Source: Thermococcus piezophilus
GTDB taxonomy: Archaea > Methanobacteriota_B > Thermococci > Thermococcales > Thermococcaceae
DNA length: 64,000 nucleotides
Assembly: GCF_001647085.1 (NCBI RefSeq)
Contig: NZ_CP015520.1
Location: 1,054,001-1,118,000, forward strand
Direction: 5' to 3'
Shown: positions 30,323 through 62,733 of the stretch, in pieces
How the letters are laid out: every line of letters starts with the position of its first letter
How positions within the stretch are numbered: position 1 is the first letter of the stretch
Program-made: the position numbers and the translations under genes
The notes under the pieces: generated by a model
The model's database searches: none
Told to the model about the DNA's origin: nothing
The model's input: only the letters and a program-made list of their open reading frames with translations

Positions 30323-31433
30323 CTCTCTCCCATCCTCTTACTTTTCCCCTAAGGTAAATTCCAACGAGAACGGCAATCCCAACGTCAATGACGGCCAATA
30401 TGAGCTTCGTGAAGACCTCTATGTCGGATATCGTCAGTATCGCCATCGCGTATCTCGTCGTCAGGTCAATGGTGACCCACAAGGCCGGCATTATGAGTAG
30501 TGTTGAGATGTAGTACCAGATGTGGTAGTCCCTCCTCAAGTAAGCCTGGATAACGCGGCCCATTATCATGACTGAGACTCCGAGGATAAGCGAGGAGTTG
30601 AGGGCGTTTAAGTAAATGAGAGTTGCTAGTAGCGATGTGCCTGGCCATCCCCCTATCAGCTCCTTTGAGTACTCCTCCAGGCTTAGATAAGCGTTTATGG
30701 CCCCGCCGCTTATAATAAGCAGGCCCGCGATTACCGAAATTACGAATATAAACTGCCTCGCTAGAGTTTCCCTGACGTTGAGCCTAAAGCCCTTTGTGAA
30801 GAAGTATCCTCCAATGAAAAGGAGGATCGTCCCGGTGACCGTTGCGGAGACTATCTTGATGCTCTCAGGATACCAAACCGAGATGAGTCTGGAGATGCCG
30901 TACAGGAGAAGTATCATTCCGGGTATCCCTAGGACTACCTTGGCCACCTCGGGGTCGCTAAGTATCTCCCTCAAATATTTGTATATGATGTAGTAGGTCG
31001 TCTCGATTCCCTCGCTCTGCTTGATGACGACCCTGTGGGAGCTTATTATGGGTACCTTTGAGGTTATAATCGGGAAGATCTGCTCGTCTTCGGCACCATC
31101 AGTTACCGTTATGACTCCATCGGCCTGGAACCTTTCAAGAACCTCGTCCAGCTGTCTGCTCAGCTCCAGGTCGCTCTTAACGCCGACTTTGGGGTGGCCG
31201 GTTATAAGCGCGACCTCAACTTCCTCGAACTCGTCACCCCCATTGAGCTTGTCATAGAGCTTGACAGCGGCGTAGACAACGTTGGCGTCACTGTCCTCTG
31301 GATCGGCCAGGCTGAGCTTTAAGGCCGCATCTATGCAGGCGTCTCTCCCGATGACCGGGCCCTCTACCCCGGCCTTTTGTCCAAAATCGTCATCCCTATC
31401 TATCGCCAAAATCAGAGCCTTAATATCAACCAC
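30300..31433 (-). CDS. DUF373 family membrane protein
   Basis: A 377-residue archaeal DUF373 protein. The N-terminal 140 residues form a soluble domain (LILAIDRDDDFG...VYAAVKLYDKL...ITVTDGAEDEQIFPII), and the remainder has about six or seven membrane helices. The function is not known. GTG 31433 is read within GGGGTG, overlapping the end of the MTH1187-family gene, so translation is coupled to it. Confidence 0.87.
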   Translation of the reverse strand: MVDIKALILAIDRDDDFGQKAGVEGPVIGRDACIDAALKLSLADPEDSDANVVYAAVKLYDKLNGGDEFEEVEVALITGHPKVGVKSDLELSRQLDEVLERFQADGVITVTDGAEDEQIFPIITSKVPIISSHRVVIKQSEGIETTYYIIYKYLREILSDPEVAKVVLGIPGMILLLYGISRLISVWYPESIKIVSATVTGTILLFIGGYFFTKGFRLNVRETLARQFIFVISVIAGLLIISGGAINAYLSLEEYSKELIGGWPGTSLLATLIYLNALNSSLILGVSVMIMGRVIQAYLRRDYHIWYYISTLLIMPALWVTIDLTTRYAMAILTISDIEVFTKLILAVIDVGIAVLVGIYLRGKVRGWERVEAGAST

Positions 31434-31728
31434 CCCTTGCCTTCTCGAGGACTGATTTCACTTTATCCTCCATGTGAACATGCTTATCCCTTCTGTCATC
31501 GATTCTCACCGTTGTTGAAACCCTATCTGCCCCGAGCTTGAACATGAGCTCATGGGCTTCTTCGACTATATCGAAAGCCTCCTTCATGGTCGGAACCTCT
31601 ATGATAGTTGCCATCGGTGTCAGTTGATACTTAACACCTTTCTTATCTAAAAGCTTTACCACTTCGGCCACGTATCTGCTCAGGCTCTTCTCACCAAGGG
31701 GTACTATCACGAATTCCACGATGACCAT
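31426..31728 (-). CDS. MTH1187/UPF0045 family thiamine-binding-like protein
   Basis: A 100-residue ferredoxin-fold protein of the MTH1187 (UPF0045, YqgV) family, which binds small molecules such as thiamine in some members. Seen are VEFVIVPLGE, YQLTPMATIIE and the C-terminal DDRRDKH. ATG 31728 follows GGTGTCGA. It is the first gene of the operon with DUF373 and the coiled-coil protein. Confidence 0.88.
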   Translation of the reverse strand: MVIVEFVIVPLGEKSLSRYVAEVVKLLDKKGVKYQLTPMATIIEVPTMKEAFDIVEEAHELMFKLGADRVSTTVRIDDRRDKHVHMEDKVKSVLEKARGG

Positions 31729-31821
31729 CTTCGACACCTGGCTAAGTTTAGTTCGGCAATTTTTTAAACTTTGCGGGAAAGATAAATAACCATTCACCCG
31801 TAGATAGTTGGGGGTGATGGA

Positions 31822-32439
31822 ATGTACAGGATCAAGGATGAGTGGGGAGAGTTCCTCGTCATGCTAGCGAGGAGGGCTATAGAGGAGTACGTCCGTAACG
31901 GCAGAACGATAGAGCCCCCAGAGGGCACGCCGCCCGAGCTCTGGGAAAAGATGGGGGTTTTCGTAACCCTTAACCGTCATAATGTTCCACCTCAAATGTC
32001 TCTTAGGGGCTGCATAGGCTTTCCACTGCCGATCTATCCTCTAGTTGAGGCCACGATAAAAGCGGCCATCTACGCTGCCATCGATGACCCGCGCTTTCCG
32101 CCTGTGAAGGAGAGCGAGCTGGATGATATTGTCATTGAGGTCAGTGTCCTGACGCCTCCCGAGATTATAGAAGGACCGCCGGAGGAGAGACCGAGGAAGA
32201 TAAAGGTGGGCCAAGACGGCCTGATAATCGAGAAGGGGATACATTCAGGCCTGCTACTTCCTCAGGTGCCTGTAGAGTGGGGCTGGGACGAGGAGGAGTT
32301 TTTAGCTCAGATCTGCTGGAAGGCTGGATTGCCCCCCGACTGCTGGCTCGACGAGGACACCAAAGTCTACCGCTTCACAGCAGAGATATTCGAAGAGGAG
32401 TACCCGATGGGCCCGGTAAGAAGGAAGCCACTGGTGTGA
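31822..32439 (+). CDS. AMMECR1-domain protein
   Basis: A 205-residue AMMECR1 family protein with the signature LRGCIGFPLPIYPL near residue 62 and the pattern EVSVLTPPE. The family is found in archaea and eukaryotes and its activity is not established; the conserved cysteine suggests catalysis or thiol chemistry. ATG 31822 follows GGGGGTGAT. Convergent with the m5C methyltransferase at one-base separation. Confidence 0.93.
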   Translation: MYRIKDEWGEFLVMLARRAIEEYVRNGRTIEPPEGTPPELWEKMGVFVTLNRHNVPPQMSLRGCIGFPLPIYPLVEATIKAAIYAAIDDPRFPPVKESELDDIVIEVSVLTPPEIIEGPPEERPRKIKVGQDGLIIEKGIHSGLLLPQVPVEWGWDEEEFLAQICWKAGLPPDCWLDEDTKVYRFTAEIFEEEYPMGPVRRKPLV

Positions 32440-33896: not shown

Positions 33897-34449
33897 ATGG
33901 ATCGGAGAAACACTGTAGTTGTGACGGTGTTGGGGATAATCATAATCTTGAGTGTTCATCTTTACGTCCAAAAAAGCGTTTGAACGCCAAGATTGAAGCC
34001 CGGCGGGACTGTGATAGGTCCTGGGTTCACCTCGTAACGTTTTCTACGCTGGTTGATGTTCAATTCCACTCCAAGAACGCGCTTGATGCGGTTCACTCAA
34101 ATTCCACGGACGCGTTTAACCTCTCCACCGTTGAGCTTGAAAGGGACTTTTTAGGCCTCTACAATCACCTCGTTGAGACTGCGATTTACCTTGAACTAGA
34201 CACGCTTAACGATTCCGTTTTGGAGATGACCAATACAGGGCCGTGTATAGATTTTTAAACGCGTCAATGGCAGATTTCTTGGATGGGACCGCCAACATCT
34301 CTGCCGTCCGCGAGGGGTTAAACCTGATTTACAATTTTGCCACAGAGTGGCGAGAGAACGGCAACTATCCCAGCGAAGAGATTTTGAAAGCCAATGCCGA
34401 GCTTCAGCAGAAGTGCAGTGCCCTTGTTCCAAAGGTTGTGAATCCTTGA
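33897..34449 (+). pseudogene. Frameshifted gene of a membrane-anchored helical protein
   Basis: Across three frames a single protein of about 184 residues is readable: an N-terminal anchor (MDRRNTVVVTVLGIIIILSVH), then RLNAKIEARRDCDRSWVHL, an acidic helical middle, and the C-terminal RFLNASMADFLDGTANISA...KVVNP. The two breaks are single missing bases at homopolymers: A6 at 33970-33975 and G3 at 34238-34240. The start ATG 33897 follows GTGGTGGGATGA. The family is unknown to me, probably Thermococcales-specific. Either a recent pseudogene or sequencing artefact. Confidence 0.7.
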
Positions 34450-34537
34450 TTGTTGGTCTTTTTTTCATTCTCTTTCTGATGAACCTCGATGGCGAAGTTT
34501 ATTAGTTCTGGATTCAATAATCCAACAGGTGTTGGTT

Positions 34538-37500
34538 ATGATCCTTGATGTCGATTACATCACAGAGGACGGAAAGCCTGTCATCAGGATCTTTAAGAAG
34601 GAGAAGGGTGAGTTCAAGATTGAATACGACAGAGACTTCGAGCCTTACATCTATGCACTCCTCAAGGACGATTCTGCCATCGAAGAAGTGAAGAAGATAA
34701 CGGCGAAGAGACATAACACCGTCGTCAAGGTCAAGCGTGCCGAGAAGGTGAAGAAGAAGTTCCTCGGCCGACCTGTTGAGGTATGGAAGCTCTACTTCGA
34801 GCACCCGCAGGATGTCCCGGCCATAAGGGATGAGATAAGGAAGCATCCCGCTGTGGTAGACATCTATGAGTATGACATCCCCTTCGCCAAGCGCTACATC
34901 ATAGACAGGGGCCTCGTCCCCATGGAGGGCAATGAAGAACTGAAGATGCTCGCCTTTGACATCGAGACGCTCTACCACGAGGGCGAGGAGTTCGGAACCG
35001 GGCCCATACTCATGATAAGCTACGCGGATGAGAACGAGGCGAGGGTTATAACCTGGAAAAAGATCGACCTGCCCTATGTTGACGTCGTCTCAACTGAGAA
35101 GGAGATGATAAAGCGCTTTTTGAGGGTTGTTAAGGAGAAGGATCCTGATGTTCTCATTACATACAACGGCGACAACTTCGACTTTTCATACCTCAAAAAA
35201 CGTTGCGAAAAGCTTGGGATAAGCTTCACCCTCGGGCGGGACGGAAGCGAGCCGAGGATACACCGCATGGGCGACCGCTTCGCCGTGGAGGTCAAGGGGA
35301 GGATTCACTTTGACCTCTACCCGGTCATAAGGCGCACCATCAACCTGCCGACCTACACCCTTGAGGTCGTTTATGAGGCGGTCTTTGGCAAACCCAAGGA
35401 GAAGGTATACGCGGAGGAGATAACCCTTGCCTGGGAGAGCGGCGAGGGGCTTGAGCGCGTTGCGCGCTACTCTATGGAAGATGCAAAGGCAACCTATGAG
35501 CTCGGAAGGGAGTTCTTCCCGATGGAGGCCCAGCTTTCGAGGCTGATAGGCCAGAGCCTCTGGGACGTGTCGCGTTCCAGCACGGGCAATCTGGTTGAAT
35601 GGTTCCTGCTGAGGACGGCCTATGAGAGAAACGAGCTGGTACCGAACAAGCCAGACGACAGGGAACTAGCGAGGAGAAGGAACAGCTACGCTGGCGGCTA
35701 CGTTAAGGAGCCCGAGCGCGGACTATGGGAGAACATAGCTTATTTGGACTTCAGATGTCACCCTGCTGATACAAAAGTCATTGTAAAAGGACATGGACTC
35801 GTTAACATAAGCGAGGTCAGGGAAGGTGACTATGTCCTTGGAATCAACGGGTGGCAACGTGTCAGAAAAGTCTGGGAGTACAATTACAAAGGAGAGTTAA
35901 TTAACATCAATGGACTCAGGTGCACTCCTAACCACAAGATACCAGTTGTCACTAAAAACGAGAGACAGACAAGGATAAGGGACAGTCTTGCTAAATCCTT
36001 TTTGACTCGTAAAGTTAAGGGACGGATAATTACAACCCCTATGTTCGAGAGGATAAGTAACTTTGAATCCACTCAGGTCAGTGAAGATGAAGTTCTGAAG
36101 GGAGAACTTGTGGGTATACTGCTTGCAGAGGGGACGTTGCTCAGAAAGGATTTTGACTTGTCACGCACCAAGAGGAGTATATCCCATCAATATCGGGTGG
36201 AGATAACGATTGGAAGCGAGGAGAAAGAGTTCCTCGACAGAATTGTCTACATTTTTGAGAAGCTCTTTGGGGTTACTCCTTCAATCACGAGGAAGGGGGG
36301 AACGAACGCGGTAAAAATCCAAGTGGCAAAGAAAAGGGTTTATCTTGAAATTGAAAAGCTGATGAACAACGTTGAGAATTTGCATGCTCCCTCAGTTGTT
36401 AGGGGTTTCTTTGAGGGTGATGGAACTGTTAACCGCGTTCGCAAGAGTATCGTCATTAGCCAGGGGACAAACAATGGGTGGAAGCTTGAGCTGATTTCAA
36501 AGCTCCTCAATAGGCTTGGAATCCCCTACAGTACTTACGAGTACCAATATACAGAGAATAGAAAGCGTCTCACAAGGCACATACTTGAGATAACAGGCAG
36601 GGATGGACTAATTCTCTTCCAGGTTCTCGCTGGATTCATTAGCTCTCACAAGAACGAGATGCTTCGGGAAGCTATCCAAAGTATAGAAATGAACAGACTC
36701 GAAAACAGCTCTTTTTATGAGCTCAGCGACTTCACCACGAAGAAGGAGTACTATGAGGGCAAGGTTTACGACCTGACTCTTGAGGGTAGCCCCTATTACT
36801 TTGCCAACGGAATACTGACCCACAATTCGCTGTACCCCTCTATCATAATCACACACAACGTCTCGCCGGATACTCTCAACAGAGAGGGCTGCAAGGAATA
36901 TGATGTCGCCCCTAAGGTCGGCCACAAGTTCTGCAAGGATGTTCCCGGGTTCATCCCAAGTCTGCTCGGTGCTCTGCTTGACGAGAGGCAGAAGATAAAA
37001 AGGAAGATGAAGGCTACGATAGACCCCCTCGAGAAGAAGCTCCTTGATTACAGGCAACGGGCAATAAAAATCTTAGCGAATAGCATTCTACCCGATGAAT
37101 GGGTTCCTTTGCTCATTGATGGAAGGCTCAAACTGACGAGAATCGGCGATTTTGTTGATAATGCGATGGATGAGGGGAACCCCCTAAAGAGCAATGAAAC
37201 CGAGGTTCTCGAAGTTTGGGGAATAAATGCCATTTCTTTCAACAGAAAGACAAAGATATCCGAGGTAAGGCCCGTCAGAGCCCTTATACGGCACCGCTAT
37301 CGCGGAAAAGTGTACAGAATAAAATTCTCCTCCGGCAGGAAAATCAAGGTCACGGAGGGGCACAGTCTTTTCACAGTCAAAAATGGGGAACTTGTGGAAG
37401 TTACCGGCGGGAAAGTAAAACCTGGGGACTTCATATCAGTTCCAAGGATGATTAACCTCCCGGAAAGGCATGAGAGGATAAACCTTGCCGATGTTCTCCT

Positions 37501-40500
37501 CAACCTTCCTGAGGAGGAAACCGCCGACGTCGTCTTAACTATACCCACCAGGGGGCGCAAGAACTTCTTTAGGGGCATGCTGAGAACCCTCCGCTGGATT
37601 TTTGAGGGAGAGAAAAGACCCAGAACGGCCCGAAGATACCTTGAACACCTCCAAAAGCTGGGCTATGTCAGACTCAAAAAATCGGCTACGAAGTTCTTGA
37701 TGAGAAAGCTTTAAGGAAATACAGGCGCTCTACGAGGTTCTTGCTGAAAAGGTTAGGTACAACGGCAACAAGAGGGAATACCTGGTTGCCTTTAATGACC
37801 TCAGGGATAAGATAGAGTTTATGCCTGAGGAAGAGCTTAGGGAGTGGAAGATTGGAACCCTCAACGGCTTTAGGATGGAGCCTTTCATTGAAGTCAACGA
37901 AGACCTTGCAAAGCTTCTCGGTTATTACGTTAGTGAGGGTTATGCAGGAAAGCAGAGGAACCAGAAGAACGGGTGGAGCTATTCGGTCAAGCTTTACAAC
38001 AATGACCAGAAGGTTCTCGATGACATGGAGAGGCTTGCATCGAAATTCTTCGGAAAGGTGAGACGCGGAAAGAACTACGTGGAGATGCCCAAGAAAATGG
38101 CCTACGTGCTCTTCAAGAGCCTATGTGGTACACTGGCGGAGAACAAACGAGTTCCTGAGGTCATATTCACCTCCCCCGAAAACGTGCGCTGGGCCTTTTT
38201 AGAGGGGTACTTCATAGGGGACGGCGACCTCCATCCGAGCAAGAGGGTTAGGCTTTCCACAAAAAGCGAGACCTTAGTCAACGGTTTGATAATCCTCCTC
38301 AACTCCCTTGGCATCTCGGCCGTTAAGATAATGTTTGAGAGCGGGGTGTACAGAGTTCTAGTTAACGAAGAACTATCGTTCCTTGGCAACAGCAAGAAGA
38401 AGAACGCCTATTACTTTCACGTAATTCCAAAGGAGATACTCGAAGACGTCTTCGAAAAGAGGTTTCAGAAAAACGTGAGCCCCAAAAAGCTTAGAGAGAA
38501 GATTAAGAGGAGCGAACTTAACCAGGAGAAGGCCAAGAGAATTTCCTGGCTTCTCGAGGGAGACATTGTGCTTGACAGAGTTGAAGAAGTCGAAGTTGAG
38601 GACTACAACGGCTACGTCTACGATCTAAGCGTTGAGGAGAATGAAAACTTCCTGGCAGGATTTGGAATGATATACGCTCACAACAGCTATTACGGGTACT
38701 ACGGCTATCCCAGGGCAAGGTGGTACTGCAAGGAGTGCGCTGAGAGCGTTACCGCCTGGGGCAGGGAATACATTGAGATGACGATAAGGGAAATTGAGGA
38801 GAAATATGGCTTTAAAGTGCTGTATGCGGACAGCGTCACCGGGGACACTGAGATAATCATACGGCGGAAGGGGCGTGTTGAGTTCGTCAGAATCGAGGAT
38901 CTATTTGAAAGGGTTGATTACAGAATAGGTGAGAAAGAGTACTGTACCCTTGATGGAGTTGAAGCCCTGACCCTTGACAACAGGGGGAAACTAGTCTGGA
39001 AGAAGGTTCCCCACGTCATGAGGCACAAAACTGATAAGAAGGTTTATCGCGTTTGGCTTACCAATAGCTGGCACTTGGAAGTTACCGAGGACCACTCCCT
39101 TATCGGCTACATCAACACCTCCAAGGTAAAGCCGAACAGACCGTTAAAGGAGCGGTTTGTTGAGGTTAAACCGGAAGAACTCGGAAAGTCAGTGAAGTCC
39201 CTCATAACGCCGAGAAAGGCCTTAGCCAAGAGCGTAAAACCAAACCCGGTTGCGGTTAAGTTCTGGGAGCTGGTGGGGCTTCTCGTCGGTGATGGCAACT
39301 GGGGTGGTTCTTCAAACTGGGCCAGATACTATGTTGGTCTCGCCTGTGGCAACGACCGGGACGAAATAGCCTGGAAAGTCCTCGAACCACTGAAAGAGAT
39401 GGGAGTAATCTCGAACTACTACGACAAGAGTAGGAAAGGCGACCTCTCGATACTCTCAAAAGGACTGGCGCGGTTCATGGTTAGGTACTTTAAGGATGAG
39501 AATGGGGAGAAGAGGATTCCTGGCTTTATGTTCAACATCCCGCGCGAGTACATTGAGGCTTTTCTTAGGGGTCTGTTTACGGCCGACGGAACGGTCAGCC
39601 TGAGGCGCGGCGTTCCAGAGATAAGGTTGACCTCCGTCAACGGGGTCCTCTTAGAGGACGTTAGAAAGCTCCTCTGGCTCGTAGGGGTTTCGAACTCGAT
39701 GTTCAGGAAAAGCAATCCAAACAGGTACAACGGAAAGGTCAGCGGCACATACTCAAAGCATATCCGCATCAAGGACAAGAAGGCCTTCGCCGAGAGGATA
39801 GGCTTCATCCTAGAAAGGAAGCAGAGGAAGCTCGTCGAAAATCTCAAGGAATCTATGATGAAAAAGAGGGTCTTCAAGTATGACTTTGACCTCGTGCAGA
39901 TTAAGAAAGTTGATGAGATACCCCACAATGGCTACGTCTACGACATAGAGGTCGAGGACACCCACAGGTTCTTTGCCAATGGAATACTCGTCCACAACAC
40001 GGACGGCTTTTATGCGACAATACCAGGAGCGGACGCTGAAACTGTCAAAAAGAAGGCTAAAGAGTTTCTTAAATACATAAACGCCAAGCTGCCCGGCCTC
40101 CTGGAGCTTGAGTACGAGGGCTTCTACAAGCGCGGCTTCTTCGTCACCAAAAAGAAGTACGCCGTTATCGACGAGGAGGGCAAGATAGTAACTCGCGGGC
40201 TGGAGATAGTCAGGCGTGACTGGAGTGATATAGCTAAAGAAACGCAGGCTAGGGTTCTTGAGGCTCTCCTGAAGGACGGTAATGTCGAGAAGGCCGTTAA
40301 GATAGTCAAGGAGATAACCGAAAAGCTGAGCAAGTACGAAATCCCGCCGGAGAAGCTCGTCATCCACGAGCAGATAACGCGCGAGCTGAAGGACTACAAG
40401 GCGACTGGCCCGCACGTGGCGATTGCCAAGCGCCTCACCGCGAGGGGAATAAAAGTCCGCCCCGGCACGATAATAAGCTACATCGTGCTTAAAGGCTCTG

Positions 40501-40700
40501 GAAGGATAGGCGACAGGGCCATACCCTTCGACGAGTTCGACCCAGCAAAGCACAAGTACGACGCTGACTACTACATCGAGAACCAGGTTCTCCCGGCTGT
40601 GATGAGGATTTTGGAGGCGTTCGGCTACCGTAAGGAGGACCTGAGGTATCAGAAGACAAAGCAGGTCGGCCTTGGGGCGTGGTTGAAGCCGAAGAAATGA
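34538..40700 (+). CDS. polB: DNA polymerase B precursor with three inteins, frameshifted in intein 2
   Basis: Family B DNA polymerase with 3'-5' proofreading. Spliced exteins total about 773 residues: 1-406, then 85, 49 and 233. Exonuclease motifs FDIET (D141, E143), YNGDNFDF and [10 protein letters not shown] are intact; polymerase motifs are DFR/SLYPSI (motif A), KILAN/S (motif B) and YAD/TDG (motif C), each interrupted by an intein. V93 of the uracil-sensing pocket is present. ATG 34538 follows GGTG. As written the frame ends at 37714 and resumes before 37821, so no full-length precursor is possible unless the two missing bases in intein 2 are errors. Confidence 0.95.
35756..36826 (+). mobile_element. 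PolB intein 1 (pol-c site), 357 aa
   Basis: Inserted after Arg406 in motif A. It begins with Cys ([10 protein letters not shown]) and ends with His-Asn (ILTHN) before Ser, the residues needed for protein splicing. A LAGLIDADG homing endonuclease is embedded, with motifs [11 protein letters not shown] and [12 protein letters not shown], both retaining an acidic catalytic residue. The frame is intact, so splicing and homing could both be active. Confidence 0.93.
37082..38684 (+). mobile_element. PolB intein 2 (pol-a site), 535 aa if repaired, frameshifted
   Basis: Inserted in motif B after KILAN. It begins with Ser ([11 protein letters not shown]) and ends YAHN before Ser. The length is 1603 bases, two short of a multiple of three. 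One base is missing at the A6 run 37676-37681 and another at the GG at 37724-37725; restoring both gives the continuous sequence of this intein class ([15 protein letters not shown], then [12 protein letters not shown]). LAGLIDADG motifs [12 protein letters not shown] and [13 protein letters not shown] lie in the intact second part. Confidence 0.9.
38832..39998 (+). mobile_element. PolB intein 3 (pol-b site), 389 aa
   Basis: Inserted in motif C between YAD and TDG. It begins with Ser ([12 protein letters not shown]) and ends VHN before Thr. LAGLIDADG motifs [11 protein letters not shown] and [12 protein letters not shown] keep both aspartates. Its frame is intact and its class matches the T. 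litoralis Pol-2 intein. Confidence 0.93.
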
Positions 40701-57428: not shown

Positions 57429-57962
57429 ATGGACTTCGGAGAGCTGGAGAGAAAGGTTGTGGTCTTCCGTGATGCACGAGGCTGGGCGAAGTATCACACG
57501 CCCAAAAACCTCGCCATCTCGGCAGTGGTTGAGCTCGGCGAACTTTTGGAGCACTTCCAGTGGGAAACCGACGAGGAGATTCTTGAACTCGCCGAGAACC
57601 CAACCAAAAGGGAAGCGATAGCCGACGAGATTGCGGATGTCATAATCTACATTACACTCCTCGCCCATGAGCTTGGAAACTACCTCTTCTTCTGTTTTAC
57701 GAGTAGGGGAACCAACACTAATCCAACTAACAAAGCTGGTCCGCAGATGTCTTTTGATTTTGTGTTCTCACTACGAGCCCAGGGTGGGGTAATAACTTTA
57801 AACACTGGTTCGTTCCACTTGCATGTCATGTTGTTTTCTCCTCTCTGGCATTCGAAGGTAATGTACTGCTCGCATTCACCACAGTACCCGCCGTACAGGA
57901 CTACTTTAAAAGTGGTTGCGTTAAGTTCAACCTCCCATCTGGTTATTGTGCTGTTCCAGTAA
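57429..57962 (+). CDS. MazG-like nucleotide pyrophosphohydrolase with replaced C-terminus
   Basis: The first 82 residues match MazG/dCTP pyrophosphatase proteins, which remove non-canonical dNTPs. The Mg-binding motifs are present (ELGELLE, then EIADVIIYITLLAHEL). After about position 57675 the normal 20-residue tail is absent and the frame runs on through about 95 unrelated codons antisense to the CGP-CTERM gene. The catalytic residues are retained, so activity of the chimera is possible. Confidence 0.7.
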   Translation: MDFGELERKVVVFRDARGWAKYHTPKNLAISAVVELGELLEHFQWETDEEILELAENPTKREAIADEIADVIIYITLLAHELGNYLFFCFTSRGTNTNPTNKAGPQMSFDFVFSLRAQGGVITLNTGSFHLHVMLFSPLWHSKVMYCSHSPQYPPYRTTLKVVALSSTSHLVIVLFQ

Positions 57963-58360
57963 CCTTTTTCCCAGTGCTCTCCGGTAATATTAGGCAGATA
58001 GTTTTTAACCCCCCATTGGTATTCTTCGAGAACCTTTAAGAGATTCCAGTCAGAAAGGTTGAATGGGACGGTTGGAGTGTGAGGGTAGTATGTGTCAAAT
58101 CTGTTTATCCTATTCCCGGATGAATAGTATGTGAGGGTTTTGATATGTGTCTCATTGTATGGAAGGATAGTGTATATTTTGTCAATCACTGAGTCATTAA
58201 GCGGGTTTAATGGGGGAGAAGTAGGGTGTGGGCCACCTTTATCTAATATCCATAACACGGTATCATTTTCTTTGAGAACATCCCAGATACTGATGGCATT
58301 TGTTTTTGGCAGTACGATAAGAAGGGAAAAAACGAAAAGAACAAAAGCGATCCTTTTCAA
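57680..58360 (-). CDS. Secreted protein with CGP-CTERM sorting signal
   Basis: A 226-residue secreted protein: signal peptide (KRIAFVLFVFSLLIVLP), a Trp/Tyr-rich beta domain with a CGECEQY motif and N-glycosylation sequons, and a C-terminal CGP motif (DICGPALL) followed by a hydrophobic segment and KQKKR. This matches CGP-CTERM, the Thermococcales sorting signal of exported proteins. TTG 58360 with GGAGGGATGAG upstream is the start, immediately after the metalloprotease gene stop. Confidence 0.82.
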   Translation of the reverse strand: MKRIAFVLFVFSLLIVLPKTNAISIWDVLKENDTVLWILDKGGPHPTSPPLNPLNDSVIDKIYTILPYNETHIKTLTYYSSGNRINRFDTYYPHTPTVPFNLSDWNLLKVLEEYQWGVKNYLPNITGEHWEKGYWNSTITRWEVELNATTFKVVLYGGYCGECEQYITFECQRGENNMTCKWNEPVFKVITPPWARSENTKSKDICGPALLVGLVLVPLLVKQKKR

Positions 58361-58363
58361 CTC

Positions 58364-61300
58364 TCATCCCTCCCAGTTGATCCTTAAATAGTAGCCGACT
58401 CCAGTGTACGGGCCAACCTTTGGAGTATAGTCTACCGGCAGTGTTGAATCTGGGATCCTATTAAAGTCTAAGTCAATATACAGTTTTGCATCCTGATCGT
58501 ACACTTCGTTATATGATAAAGTATGACCTATCGTAAGTAGGGCGAATACAACTTCCCACGCTGAGGTCATGTTCCGAGGTATCCGATTGATAATGTACGT
58601 TCTGTGCCAGTGAGTTAGCATTATCTCTTCTAGTTTGTCTAGATCGTTAGGCCCGTTGTGATCTTTTATGACTTTAATTAGCCCATATCCAAATTTTTCT
58701 CTCAGTTTTTTGTCGTATTCGAGGAGTTCGTTGTAGAACCAGTCGTAATCGTTCTTTTGGTTTGGATTGCCTTTTGTGCTTAGTTCGGTGGCTATTTTTG
58801 AATCGTCATGACCTTTCTTATTCCCTCGAATCCGCATATCCCGTACTCTGTTTCGAGCACATATTCCAGTGTGAATCCATCCGTATCTCCGTCCATATCA
58901 TAGTCCCATGAGAATGGTGCACCGTACTCGTCGTCAATACCAAAGACAAAGTGTGCAAGCTCGTGAGCCACGCCCCTGTAATATCCAAGGTTTTCCGGAG
59001 TGCCATACCAGTCCTTTTGGAGGTGAACGTAACCTTTGGGCACTGTTGAATTCTCTTTAAACCAGAGCCAGTACCTGAAACCATGACTAGTATAAAACCC
59101 GCCGGATTCCTCGATCCGTACCATTGAGTTCTCCCACTCTTCACTGCCCACCTGCACGTTGTTCTTTATGCTGATTTCAGCTATCATTGCGTAGCCATCG
59201 GTGTAATCGTAGATTACTTGGCTCGCCCTCTGAAAGCCTTTGATTAGTTTTTTGAGGTAATCCTCGTCAGCTTTCCAACCAATCGCGACTGAGAGCTTTA
59301 TCCCAAGAACGTCGGGCTTCGCGGGGGTCTTTCCCTATGAACAGCTCCACCGCGTTCGGGACTCCATCTCCATCGTAGTCGTAGTATGTGTCATTACGCT
59401 CTGGCGAGAACTTGTTGGTTCCAAGCTCTTTGTTAAGCTCCATCTCTCTGTGGAATGGTATCCCATCACCGTCGGCGTCGTTCAGCTTGATGAGGAACCA
59501 TATTTCTGCATCGTCCTCATCAACGTCCGTTGAGGTTGCAACGGCGTCAAAGGTCAGTGAACTCGTCTCAGTTGAGGTTTCTGAACTCGAAACTGACTCG
59601 GTGCTGAGGGTCTTGACGCTATCCTTCCCCTTCCTGAAAGTGAGCGTTGCCTCGTATTTGGCTTCGTTCTTGGCCTTTGGCGTTGCGTTGGTCGTGAGGT
59701 TGCTCATGTTGGCGTCTTTGTCTGCCCCCCGTGGGGGTTGCACTCACTTCATCGTTCAGCCTTATTGCCCTCACTTCGGCGTTCCACTTGTTGATGAGGA
59801 GGACTCTCCTCTGGGTCCCGTTGGGGAGTGTTAGGGTGAAGAGCACGGCTTCTTCAGGATTTGTGTATTGGTAGAGGGTTCCGCTCTGGTAGTCTTTTAT
59901 CTCCAGCTCGTCTATTCCGTCCCAGCCATGAACGTCTGTGATGTTTACAACGCTTAAATCGTAGCCAAGAGCCTCAAGCTCGTCGTAGTGCTTGGAGAAG
60001 GGTTCGATGTCGGTGCTTGAGTCTAAATCTCCACAAGAGCCGTCGCCACAGCCGCTCAGGTGGCCGTAACTGAAGTACTCTTTGTGGTCATCGGGATAGT
60101 CGTCGCCGCTCCAGGTTCCGGTTAGAGTGTTAAACACTATATGGGCAAATAGAGAGGATGTTGGTGAGATATCCAGCACGTTTTCTCCATCGTTCAGGTT
60201 TAACCACAAATCTATAGTCTCTGCGTTGTCTGGGATGTCAAAGGTGAACTTTGCTATTGCCTGCTCTTCTAGATTGCTGAAAATATTTTCTCCAAGGAGG
60301 GTTCTCTTTTCGTAGTCTGTGGTCATATATGCAAGTTGTGAGGTGTATACTTCTTGATATCTTCCGTTTATGAGTGTAAACGTTTTTAAGCTGACGTCTC
60401 CGCTAACTGCATCGAGTTCCCGGTACTTAAATATATAGACAGTCATCGTTGCGTCTCTAAACGGCTCTATATCCTCCGCGTTGCACCACCCGTCTCTTTC
60501 ACTGTCTGTAATAACTGTAACGTTCATTCTGTAGGTTTCCCCGACCTTTCCGTACTTGTCTACGTGGGTGAACTCAATGGTAACGTTTTCTTGGCAGTTG
60601 ATGTAATTGTATAGGACGAGATTCTTCTGAGGGCACCTGGGGAACGGGAAAACTGAAGCGTTCGCCAACGTTTACCCACACGTTTACAGTATCCCCCTCG
60701 GGGTCATAAACATAAACCTGGCCGGTGTTGTTCTCGTTGGCGTACACTTGGCCTGGAAATTCAACGCTCTCAATCCTCGGTGGGGAGTTGGACCTCACGT
60801 AGATCTTTCTGCTCCACTCGCTCGTTGAGCCGTCTTCGGCGGTCATTATTATCGTGAAGTTGTGATAGCCTGCAGTTGGCTGGCTCCAGATTAGATAAAT
60901 CCATCCTACTTTTTATGGGCGTAGATGAATCCTCTACTGAACTCATCAACTTTAGCCCCCATCAACCAAAAGCGTGAGCTGTATATCTTGAGTTGTATCT
61001 GTTGGATTTTTGGCTGTGATGTTGAACCTCAGGGGATAATCCATTACCGGAGTGTTATACCTTACTTCACTGATATATGGGTGGGGAGTAGCGTCTACGT
61101 GGAATGTCTTTCCAATGGTGGCAGTTTCTCCGTTGTAGTCTGGAACGAACCTGACTACCAGCGTGTGGTTTCCGGGAGTTGCTGTCCATACCTTGTAAAC
61201 GCTGTAGTATCTTACACTGTATTTCTCACGCTCACGTCTCTTTCAGTCCTTACCAGCGTACCGTCTACGTATACCTCTATAGTTCCGGTCCCGTCGAGTG

Positions 61301-62197
61301 CACCCCTGTTGTCCAGTTTCAAGGTCAGCGACATGTATTCCCCGTCTATCGGCGGATCTGGGTGTATTGTAATCCCCTCAATGGCAATCTCCGGTGATGC
61401 GTAGTACTGGTATCTTGAAATCACATTGCCCCAAGCGTCTATAAGGTACAGGACATCGCCATCGTTGTTTAGTATCGCGCTTTCTGGAGAGCTGGCTATC
61501 AAAATTTTTATGGGAGTGTAGGGGATGCGGAACTGCTGAGTTCTATTGAATGATCCCTGCCAAAAGCATCGATGCAATTATCTTTGGGTGTGTTCTTTAT
61601 CCAGCAGCTTGGGTTGTTATATGCATAATCATCGAGAAGGTGCCACCCTTCTAAGCTCTGAGATATAGAGCTGGGGTTATACAGGTAGGCATACTCGCCG
61701 GTTCCATCGTTGGTTAGATACTTAACGTCTATTATTTGAACCATGGAGCTGGTTGAAAGGAGTTCAACCTTAAACTCGTCGTTAATGCTCTCCGTTGATT
61801 GGACTGAATACGTGCTGACATCTTTTTCCCTTTGAATGGCTTCCAACGCTCTCCTTGGATTCCTCCAGAGGTAAGTTTTTATTATGGTGGGCTCGGTGCC
61901 GTTGTACCACTAGATCTGGAATATCAAGTCGGTTCCGTTCCAATGTGCGTTTCTGATCCTCATGTTCTCTGAAATCACCATTTCCCCGTTCAGTGTGCCG
62001 TTGAGAAGGGCTTCCATTAGCTTTAGTATTGCCCTTTTTTCCTCTGGAGCGGCGGTCTGGAGAGCGTTTAGGCACTTCTCGAAGAGTGGGTTAATAACGC
62101 CCCTTTCATTTTGGATGTCTGATGAGGCTCCTGTTGTCTGTGGCAGGCCGCTCAGTACGAGCAGCACGGCGAGAACTACTACAACCAATCGCCTCAT
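58364..62197 (-). pseudogene. Large secreted metalloprotease-like gene, multiply broken
   Basis: Across frames this reads as a protein of about 1275 residues: signal peptide (MRRLVVVVLAVLLVLSGL, ATG 62197); helical region; a lamin-tail-like domain (VKYLTNDGTGEYAYLYNP...LYLIDAWGNVISRY); a CARDB/Ig-like domain (PEIAIEGITIHPDPPIDGEY); another Ig-like domain (PPRIESVEFPGQVYANENN); two Asp-rich calcium-binding repeats (DADGDG, DYDGDG); a zinc-peptidase motif HELAHFVFGIDDEYG; C-terminus ending RINWEG. There is a TAG at 61912-61910 and about eight frameshifts, many at homopolymers. The CGP-CTERM gene begins four bases after its stop, so the two form an operon. Confidence 0.75.
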
Positions 62198-62275: not shown

Positions 62276-62733
62276 TTACTCAAAGTGTTGTTCAAATGCC
62301 TTCCTCAGCCGCTTGACCTCTTCCCCGCTCATCCTGTTCTTCTCCCAGCGTTCCTTTAGGCTGAGGTTCTCGTCCTCCAAATCTAGAACGGCCTTCCTGA
62401 CGCCGCCCCGCGGGTGCCTGCAGTCTCCCTCCCATCTTGGAATCACATGCATGTGAAGGTGGGGAACCGTCTGCCCGCCGCCCTCCCAAGGTTAATGCCA
62501 ATGTTAAACGCATCAGGCTTGAGTGCCTTCTTCAGCCTCTCTATCGCGAGGTCTATGCCCCTGACCAGTGTGGCCTTCTCTTCTTCTGTCAGGTCTTCCC
62601 AGCGCTCGACGTGCCTCCTTGGAACCACTAGGAGATGCCCCCTGTTTGCTGGATACGAGTCAATCAGGATTCTGATTAGCCCGTCTTCGTAGAGTATCAA
62701 TTCCTCCCGGGGGTTGCAGAAGGGACAGTCCAT
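62276..62733 (-). pseudogene. HIT-family protein, frameshifted
   Basis: A histidine-triad nucleotide hydrolase/transferase of about 152 residues if repaired. The N-terminus has the CPFC zinc pair and ILIDSYPANRGHLLVVPRRH; the second frame has GQTVPHLHMHVIPRWEGD with the triad HxHxH, and then the C-terminus AFEQHFE. The break is one missing base at CCC 62485-62487 (GGG in coding sense). ATG 62733 follows GGTGTT. Confidence 0.8.

Follow-up and report, generated by a model that had tools for sequence, protein, structure and literature searches.

A 64,000-nucleotide stretch of the Thermococcus piezophilus chromosome (contig NZ_CP015520.1, positions 1,054,001 to 1,118,000; hereafter the window) carries on its minus strand the remains of a gene for a large secreted protein, followed directly by a small intact gene that is called here the partner. 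A truncated MazG-like gene lies beyond it on the opposite strand. The features of this region, in window coordinates, are listed below.

58364-62197, minus strand: pseudogene of a large secreted protein, disrupted by a single nonsense codon and about eight indels; other genomes have intact orthologs
62126-62197, minus strand: signal peptide MRRLVVVVLAVLLVLSGLPQTTGA, read from the sequence and nearly the same in the ortholog of genome G014
61910-61912, minus strand: in-frame TAG in place of a tryptophan codon of the relatives (FQI*WYNG versus FQIWWYNG)
61398-61741, minus strand: lamin-tail domain (LTD, PF00932), whose match in the window is weak (E 0.0033) because a frameshift near 61520 cuts it
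60510-61395, minus strand: CARDB/Ig-like region, boundaries approximate; the CARDB match is weak in the window (0.078)
about 59324-59482, minus strand: two TSP3-type calcium-binding motifs, DGDGIPFHREME and DYDGDGVPNAVELFIGKDP; the PF18884 match is weak in the window
58370-59313, minus strand: putative C-terminal metzincin-like peptidase domain (profile A1), split by a frameshift near 58800
58924-58965, minus strand: predicted zinc motif HELAHFVFGIDDEYG, that is HELAHFVFGIDDEY (HExxHxxxGxxDEY), kept in 27 of 27 complete relatives
58807-58809, minus strand: invariant Met (M173), a Met-turn candidate that aligns with the Met of the M64 IgA protease
58367-58414, minus strand: conserved end GPYTGVGYYLRINWEG; the same tag occurs in displaced tail remnants of other genomes
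57680-58360, minus strand: intact partner gene of family FAM1 (226 aa), with a signal peptide, an ectodomain, and a CGP-CTERM surface anchor; it starts 3 bases past the large gene
57429-57677, plus strand: MazG-like gene lacking its final ~25 codons; residues 1-83 match G014, and the remainder was not found

The original prediction, made from the sequence alone, had located the large gene correctly on the minus strand, with the signal peptide running from 62197 and the final stop at 58364, and the lamin-tail-like, Ig-like, DxDxDG, and HExxHxxxGxxDE motifs that it named are present on the remnant. Its further claim, that the window encodes such a protein, is not borne out, as the frame is broken by the TAG codon and about eight indels; an intact surface peptidase in the window is rejected on the same ground. 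Single-base indels lie near 61520, 61224, 60960, 60899, and 59327; in addition, 14 bases are missing near 60622 and 2 bases near 59728, and the frame shifts once more near 58800. In the rest of the window, only about four frameshifted genes, the adjoining HIT-family gene among them, occur over the ~50 kb that match G014 proteins, with all lesion rates estimated from the 64-kb window alone. The clustering of lesions in this gene thus points mostly to gene decay and not to general sequence error. Given this concentration, the 14-base deletion, the nonsense codon, and the lost end of the MazG-like gene, sequencing error was rejected as the sole cause, and some of the single-base homopolymer indels could be errors of that kind. 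Even if one or two of the indels should prove to be such errors, the gene is a genuine pseudogene, the decayed form of one that in other Thermococcus encodes a large secreted protein.

Other disrupted frames were encountered in the window. A HIT-family gene that adjoins the pseudogene (62292-62733, minus strand) is frameshifted near 62470, and its relatives are single frames of about 152-158 aa. Two genes, at 31429-31967 (minus strand) and 33971-34446 (plus strand), are seemingly split by single frameshifts relative to G014. At 34529-40700 (plus strand), adjacent frames of 1061 and 959 aa match one 1315-aa G014 protein and carry overlapping as well as extra stretches, indicating duplication or rearrangement of a large protein. 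At the 3′ border of the locus, the MazG-like frame (57429-57962, plus strand) has, in place of its own C-terminus, a sequence that continues into the partner gene in antisense orientation. This truncation, at the point where the partner array stops, looks as if it were a rearrangement scar, with the 3′ part of the array seemingly deleted.

Relatives of the peptidase end were found in 20 of the 94 Thermococcaceae genomes, the genome of the window included, and are also present in Thermococcus MAGs. A search with a profile of the tail (the C-terminal peptidase region) placed the family in 21 of the 94, and this profile found no tails outside the Thermococcaceae among 115 genomes of the phylum. 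Intact orthologs occur in G060 (a frame of 1298 aa), G014 (1325), G037 (1308), and G058 (1327), and several open frames of about 1300 aa occupy the same slot, between the HIT/proteasome-alpha cluster and an indolepyruvate oxidoreductase gene. The family has other recurrent slots, with neighbors named here from their sequences: copies in loci L042 and L054 lie by enolase, those in L049 and L050 by an eIF2-gamma-like gene, and those in L051, L052, and L090 adjoin a probable ADP-dependent sugar kinase gene. The heads in these slots are either long, with an LTD, or short.

Intact versions run from a signal peptide through an LTD, a CARDB/Ig-like part, a beta-rich region, and TSP3-type repeats to the predicted C-terminal metzincin domain. 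The domains that are weak in the window exceed the Pfam cut-offs in orthologs: LTD (cut-off 34.3 bits) in L047 (44.3) and L039 (37.6), CARDB (22.7) in L050 (26.6), and TSP3_bac (PF18884; 25) in L051 and L054 (33 and 26.5). These domain searches, together with the search for Thermococcus orthologs that had been proposed alongside them, uphold for the family the earlier reading of lamin-tail, Ig-like, calcium-binding, and HExxH parts. The TSP3 part bears weak similarity to the cell-cohesion protein MtsD and the gliding protein CglD; its motifs directly precede the C-terminal cassette, and the boundary of recombination between head and tail lies about here.

A domain search of the window's own sequence returned no peptidase family match, and the evidence for a peptidase comes from the tail family. 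Profile A1 matches the window at 58801-59313 (E 8.5e-53) and 58370-58795 (E 7.9e-33). In an alignment of 20 tails, H118, E119, H122, Y131, M173, E181, and S183 are invariant and the GPYTGVxY end is constant; the remnant in the window ends in GPYTGVGYYL. Every one of the 27 complete tails has the pattern HExxHxxxxxx[DE][DE]Y, in which positions +11 to +13 hold two acidic residues and a Tyr. A chance occurrence of the motif is excluded by this conservation across 27 relatives and by the predicted catalytic residues being invariant in 20. An AlphaFold2 model of an intact tail, built from a 20-sequence input, reached a mean pLDDT of 87 and a pTM of 0.87, and its best Foldseek matches in the PDB were nearly all metzincins (best E 2.2e-3), with modest scores (TM normalised to the target of 0.3-0.44). 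They include snake-venom enzymes, ADAM33, ADAMTS4/5, TACE, MMPs, fragilysin, and the M64 IgA protease. The last of these is also the best PDB match by sequence (E 0.022), and its HEFGHGLLGLGDEY and downstream Met align with the motif and invariant Met of the tail. HExxH, a third ligand, the Met-turn methionine, and the modelled fold are thus all present, with modest scores for the fold and a predicted zinc coordination.

Igalysins of family M64 carry an extra residue ahead of the Gly and use Asp as the third ligand (PMC12237041), and the CLCA motif is HExxHxxxGxxDEY (PMC3650047). The likeness to CLCA-type proteins noted at the outset stands for the consensus, which M64 igalysins and CLCA proteins share; membership in Pfam M64 (PF09471) does not, because the best score in the 94 genomes was 15.9 bits against a cut-off of 26. 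The CLCA domain PF08434 had no match in A1 members, and a search of the 94 genomes gave zero matches, but the controls of that search were likewise zero. Judged by sequence and model, the tail is a metzincin-like peptidase of its own family, restricted to Thermococcaceae, with a predicted zinc geometry and a presumed activity. A metzincin-like fold is modelled around the HExxH motif and the 27 complete orthologous tails keep it, in agreement with the original prediction. The proposed surface peptidase likewise finds support in the orthologs, where fold and catalytic residues speak for a zinc peptidase that is secreted and carries LTD and Ig-like domains; the copy in the window is a pseudogene.

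Comparison of heads and tails reveals a mosaic. Proteins in L040, L041, and L042 have heads that are 85-90% identical and tails that are 31-43% identical. Nucleotide identity between the window and G014 is about 0.89-0.99 over much of the head and 0.64-0.70 in the tail, with the drop (about 0.89 to 0.64) lying near 59350, and the window tail is 64% identical in protein sequence to the G060 tail. Distances among the 27 complete tails correlate with those among their partners (Mantel r 0.78, p 1e-4), both in FAM1 (0.92) and in FAM0 (0.55). For the 17 proteins with heads, the tail-partner correlation is 0.81, or 0.77 with the head controlled, and the head-partner correlation of 0.37 drops to -0.09 with the tail controlled. 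Because partner divergence follows the tail and not the head, tail and partner form the unit of exchange, and sequence comparison shows them swapped as one cassette. The pairing follows partly from physical linkage and by itself is no proof of interaction. This cassette, the main feature of the locus, extends partly beyond 58364-62197.

Arrays of small secreted genes sit 3′ of the large gene, and six-frame translations searched with the tail profile revealed short decayed tails between the array genes. A downstream gene follows 59 tails or tail remnants, and in 54 of these cases the distance from the tail end to the start of that gene is between -13 and +34 bases, with modes at -6, 0, and +8 bases. 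Clustering took in 52 partners (two more, shorter than 150 aa, were counted as truncated) and gave families FAM0 (28 members), FAM1 (21), and FAM2 (3). FAM0 proteins have an N-terminal hydrophobic segment and about 310 aa; those of FAM1 have a signal peptide, a CGP-CTERM anchor, and about 238 aa. The anchor model TIGR04288 (cut-off 21) scores 21.2 bits in the window partner and 25.8 in that of L045. Complete tails precede 27 of the 52 partners, and partial or decayed tails precede 25 (24 in other genomes plus the window's own), all of which reach the full length typical of their family. The downstream partners that follow decayed tails have a pairwise dN/dS of about 0.2, a value that may date from the time before the cassette was displaced. 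Standalone or partial tail cassettes occur in L044, L049, L056, L091, and L108. Separately, L102 (9115-9375), L105 (10204-10434), and L106 (7453-7518) each hold a tail remnant, detected with the tail profile, and a full-length partner; the locus sequence examined around each contains no complete tail, and these isolated pairs resemble solitary immunity genes. A structure model of the partner (pLDDT 82) matched no known fold, inhibitor, or immunity protein in the PDB, and a Pfam search gave no informative match; a known inhibitor fold was rejected on these results.

In polymorphic toxin systems, a C-terminal effector is replaced from cassettes that carry their own immunity gene; the effector precedes the immunity gene, leftover immunity genes gather 3′, and toxin peptidases lie at the C-terminus (PMC3482391). 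The Thermococcus loci have an exported head with a recombined C-terminus, standalone tails and strings of leftover partners, and a tail-matched partner directly downstream. From the presence of all these layout features, we infer an effector role for the peptidase and an immunity role for its anchored partner, both exerted outside the cell. By sequence comparison, the locus has a polymorphic-toxin organisation: the putative peptidase stands where such systems have the toxin, and the partner where they have the immunity protein. The large protein would be exported by its signal peptide and would display an adhesive or presentation head (LTD, Ig-like, TSP3) with a metzincin-type zinc peptidase at its C-terminus. 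Comparison shows that an incoming cassette replaces the peptidase tail and the gene directly behind it, that older cassettes stay lined up downstream with decaying tails and intact partners, and that each partner matches its own tail in sequence lineage. In competing Thermococcus cells, the tail may cleave surface proteins that are essential, and the partner, held outside the cell by CGP-CTERM or an N-terminal transmembrane segment, may bind or block its cognate peptidase. A decayed effector beside an intact partner, as in the window genome, would be expected for retained immunity. By analogy, the window gene was probably once part of a polymorphic-toxin-like system in Thermococcus, with presumed toxicity and immunity, and is now a dead copy.

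One finding that speaks against the toxin interpretation is that every tail found belongs to one peptidase family, in a search that covered tails of that family only. In classical polymorphic toxin systems, the toxin activities that are exchanged are unrelated to one another. Makarova et al. (2014; PMC4158269) described variable loci in Thermococcus that encode a large zincin and Ig-fold protein and secreted neighbors; they suggested inter-microbial conflict and proposed that the zincin cleaves partners from its own locus into bacteriocin-like or signalling peptides. The partner would then be the substrate or effector and the peptidase its maturase. Secreted, anchored partners agree with this, and co-variation of tail and partner is also expected of enzyme-substrate pairs. 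However, the 24 intact partners elsewhere and the window's own, behind partial or decayed tails, resemble leftover immunity more than substrates bereft of their enzyme, and the peptidase forms the C-terminus of a presentation protein of very large size. The survival of intact partners next to dead tails, at a dN/dS of about 0.2, is easier to reconcile with immunity, and we regard maturation as rather unlikely.

The LTD, Ig-like, and TSP3 domains, and the weak similarity of the TSP3 part to MtsD and CglD, would also suit adhesion or kin recognition, in which tails serve as variable recognition domains and partners as their receptors, and the peptidase trims or rearranges proteins of the cell surface when kin meet. 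Such a role is among the readings proposed for the analogous VARTIG loci (PMC8416519), but the retention of catalytic residues in every complete tail favors an enzymatic role and makes it distinctly improbable. A secreted zinc peptidase in a peptide-fermenting genus might simply be an ordinary extracellular nutrient protease. This is extremely unlikely, because a digestive enzyme would not be expected to occur so patchily (21 of 94 Thermococcaceae genomes), to vary so strongly in its tail, or to be accompanied by displaced cassettes and arrays of partners.

Comparison with known systems helps to place the polymorphic-toxin-like interpretation. The architecture had seemed unfamiliar in Thermococcus, yet zincin and Ig loci are on record (PMC4158269), as are CLCA-like domains (CLCA_N) in Thermococcus sp. 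AM4 (PMC3650047). The window locus is very probably of the same type as the 2014 loci, which share the large secreted zincin/Ig-like protein, multiple secreted paralogs alongside, and high variation between species. We take these to be arCOG10027/10028/10066. The 2014 account, one paragraph long, is without tail-partner cassettes, head/tail mosaicism, or a metzincin assignment, and reads the peptidase as a processing enzyme. Like CDI, Rhs, and MafB (Zhang et al. 2012; PMC3482391), the Thermococcus loci have an exported head, a C-terminal effector position, standalone tails, effector-then-partner order, and leftover partners; unlike them, they have one effector family, outward-facing anchored partners, a hyperthermophilic archaeal host, and an activity that is predicted. 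VARTIG (arCOG07710; Makarova et al. 2021; PMC8416519) is also a Thermococcales system with a large Ig-containing protein 5′ of a variable array, a recombining C-terminus, small downstream homologs of that C-terminus, and branch-specific membrane neighbors, and its authors found no toxin. In VARTIG, the tail is an Ig domain that closes with D[ND]NxxxG[GD] and lacks any recognised enzyme, whereas the metzincin-like tails here carry HExxH and end in GPYTGVGYxM (GPYTGVGY in common), and VARTIG membership was rejected. M64 igalysins (Thomasclavelia IgA protease) share HExxHxxxGxxDE, the extra residue before Gly, the Asp third ligand, the Met-turn, and a weak profile match, but the tails stay below the Pfam cut-off in 94 genomes and the accessory domains differ. 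CLCA metalloproteases (M87) share the consensus HExxHxxxGxxDEY, but no von Willebrand A domain was seen in the Thermococcus family.

As far as the literature searched goes, four results are new: the assignment of the tail to metzincins, with its motif and Met-turn; the tail and partner cassette, of which no earlier report was found, along with its remnants; the mosaic of heads and tails; and the pairing of tail and partner in quantitative terms. It is possible, and we suggest it tentatively, that these loci mediate contact-dependent antagonism in hyperthermophilic archaea, in which the swapped part is always a metzincin that acts outside the target cell, surface-anchored inhibitors confer immunity, and recognition occurs outside the cell. 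With an exchanged tail that has an identifiable catalytic fold and a matched partner, the hypothesis of a conflict system in Thermococcales can be put to a direct test using recombinant proteins, and the arrays preserve a record of the strains between which cassettes were exchanged. If true, a surface-acting peptidase warhead met by outward-facing immunity proteins would be an unusual polymorphic-toxin design.
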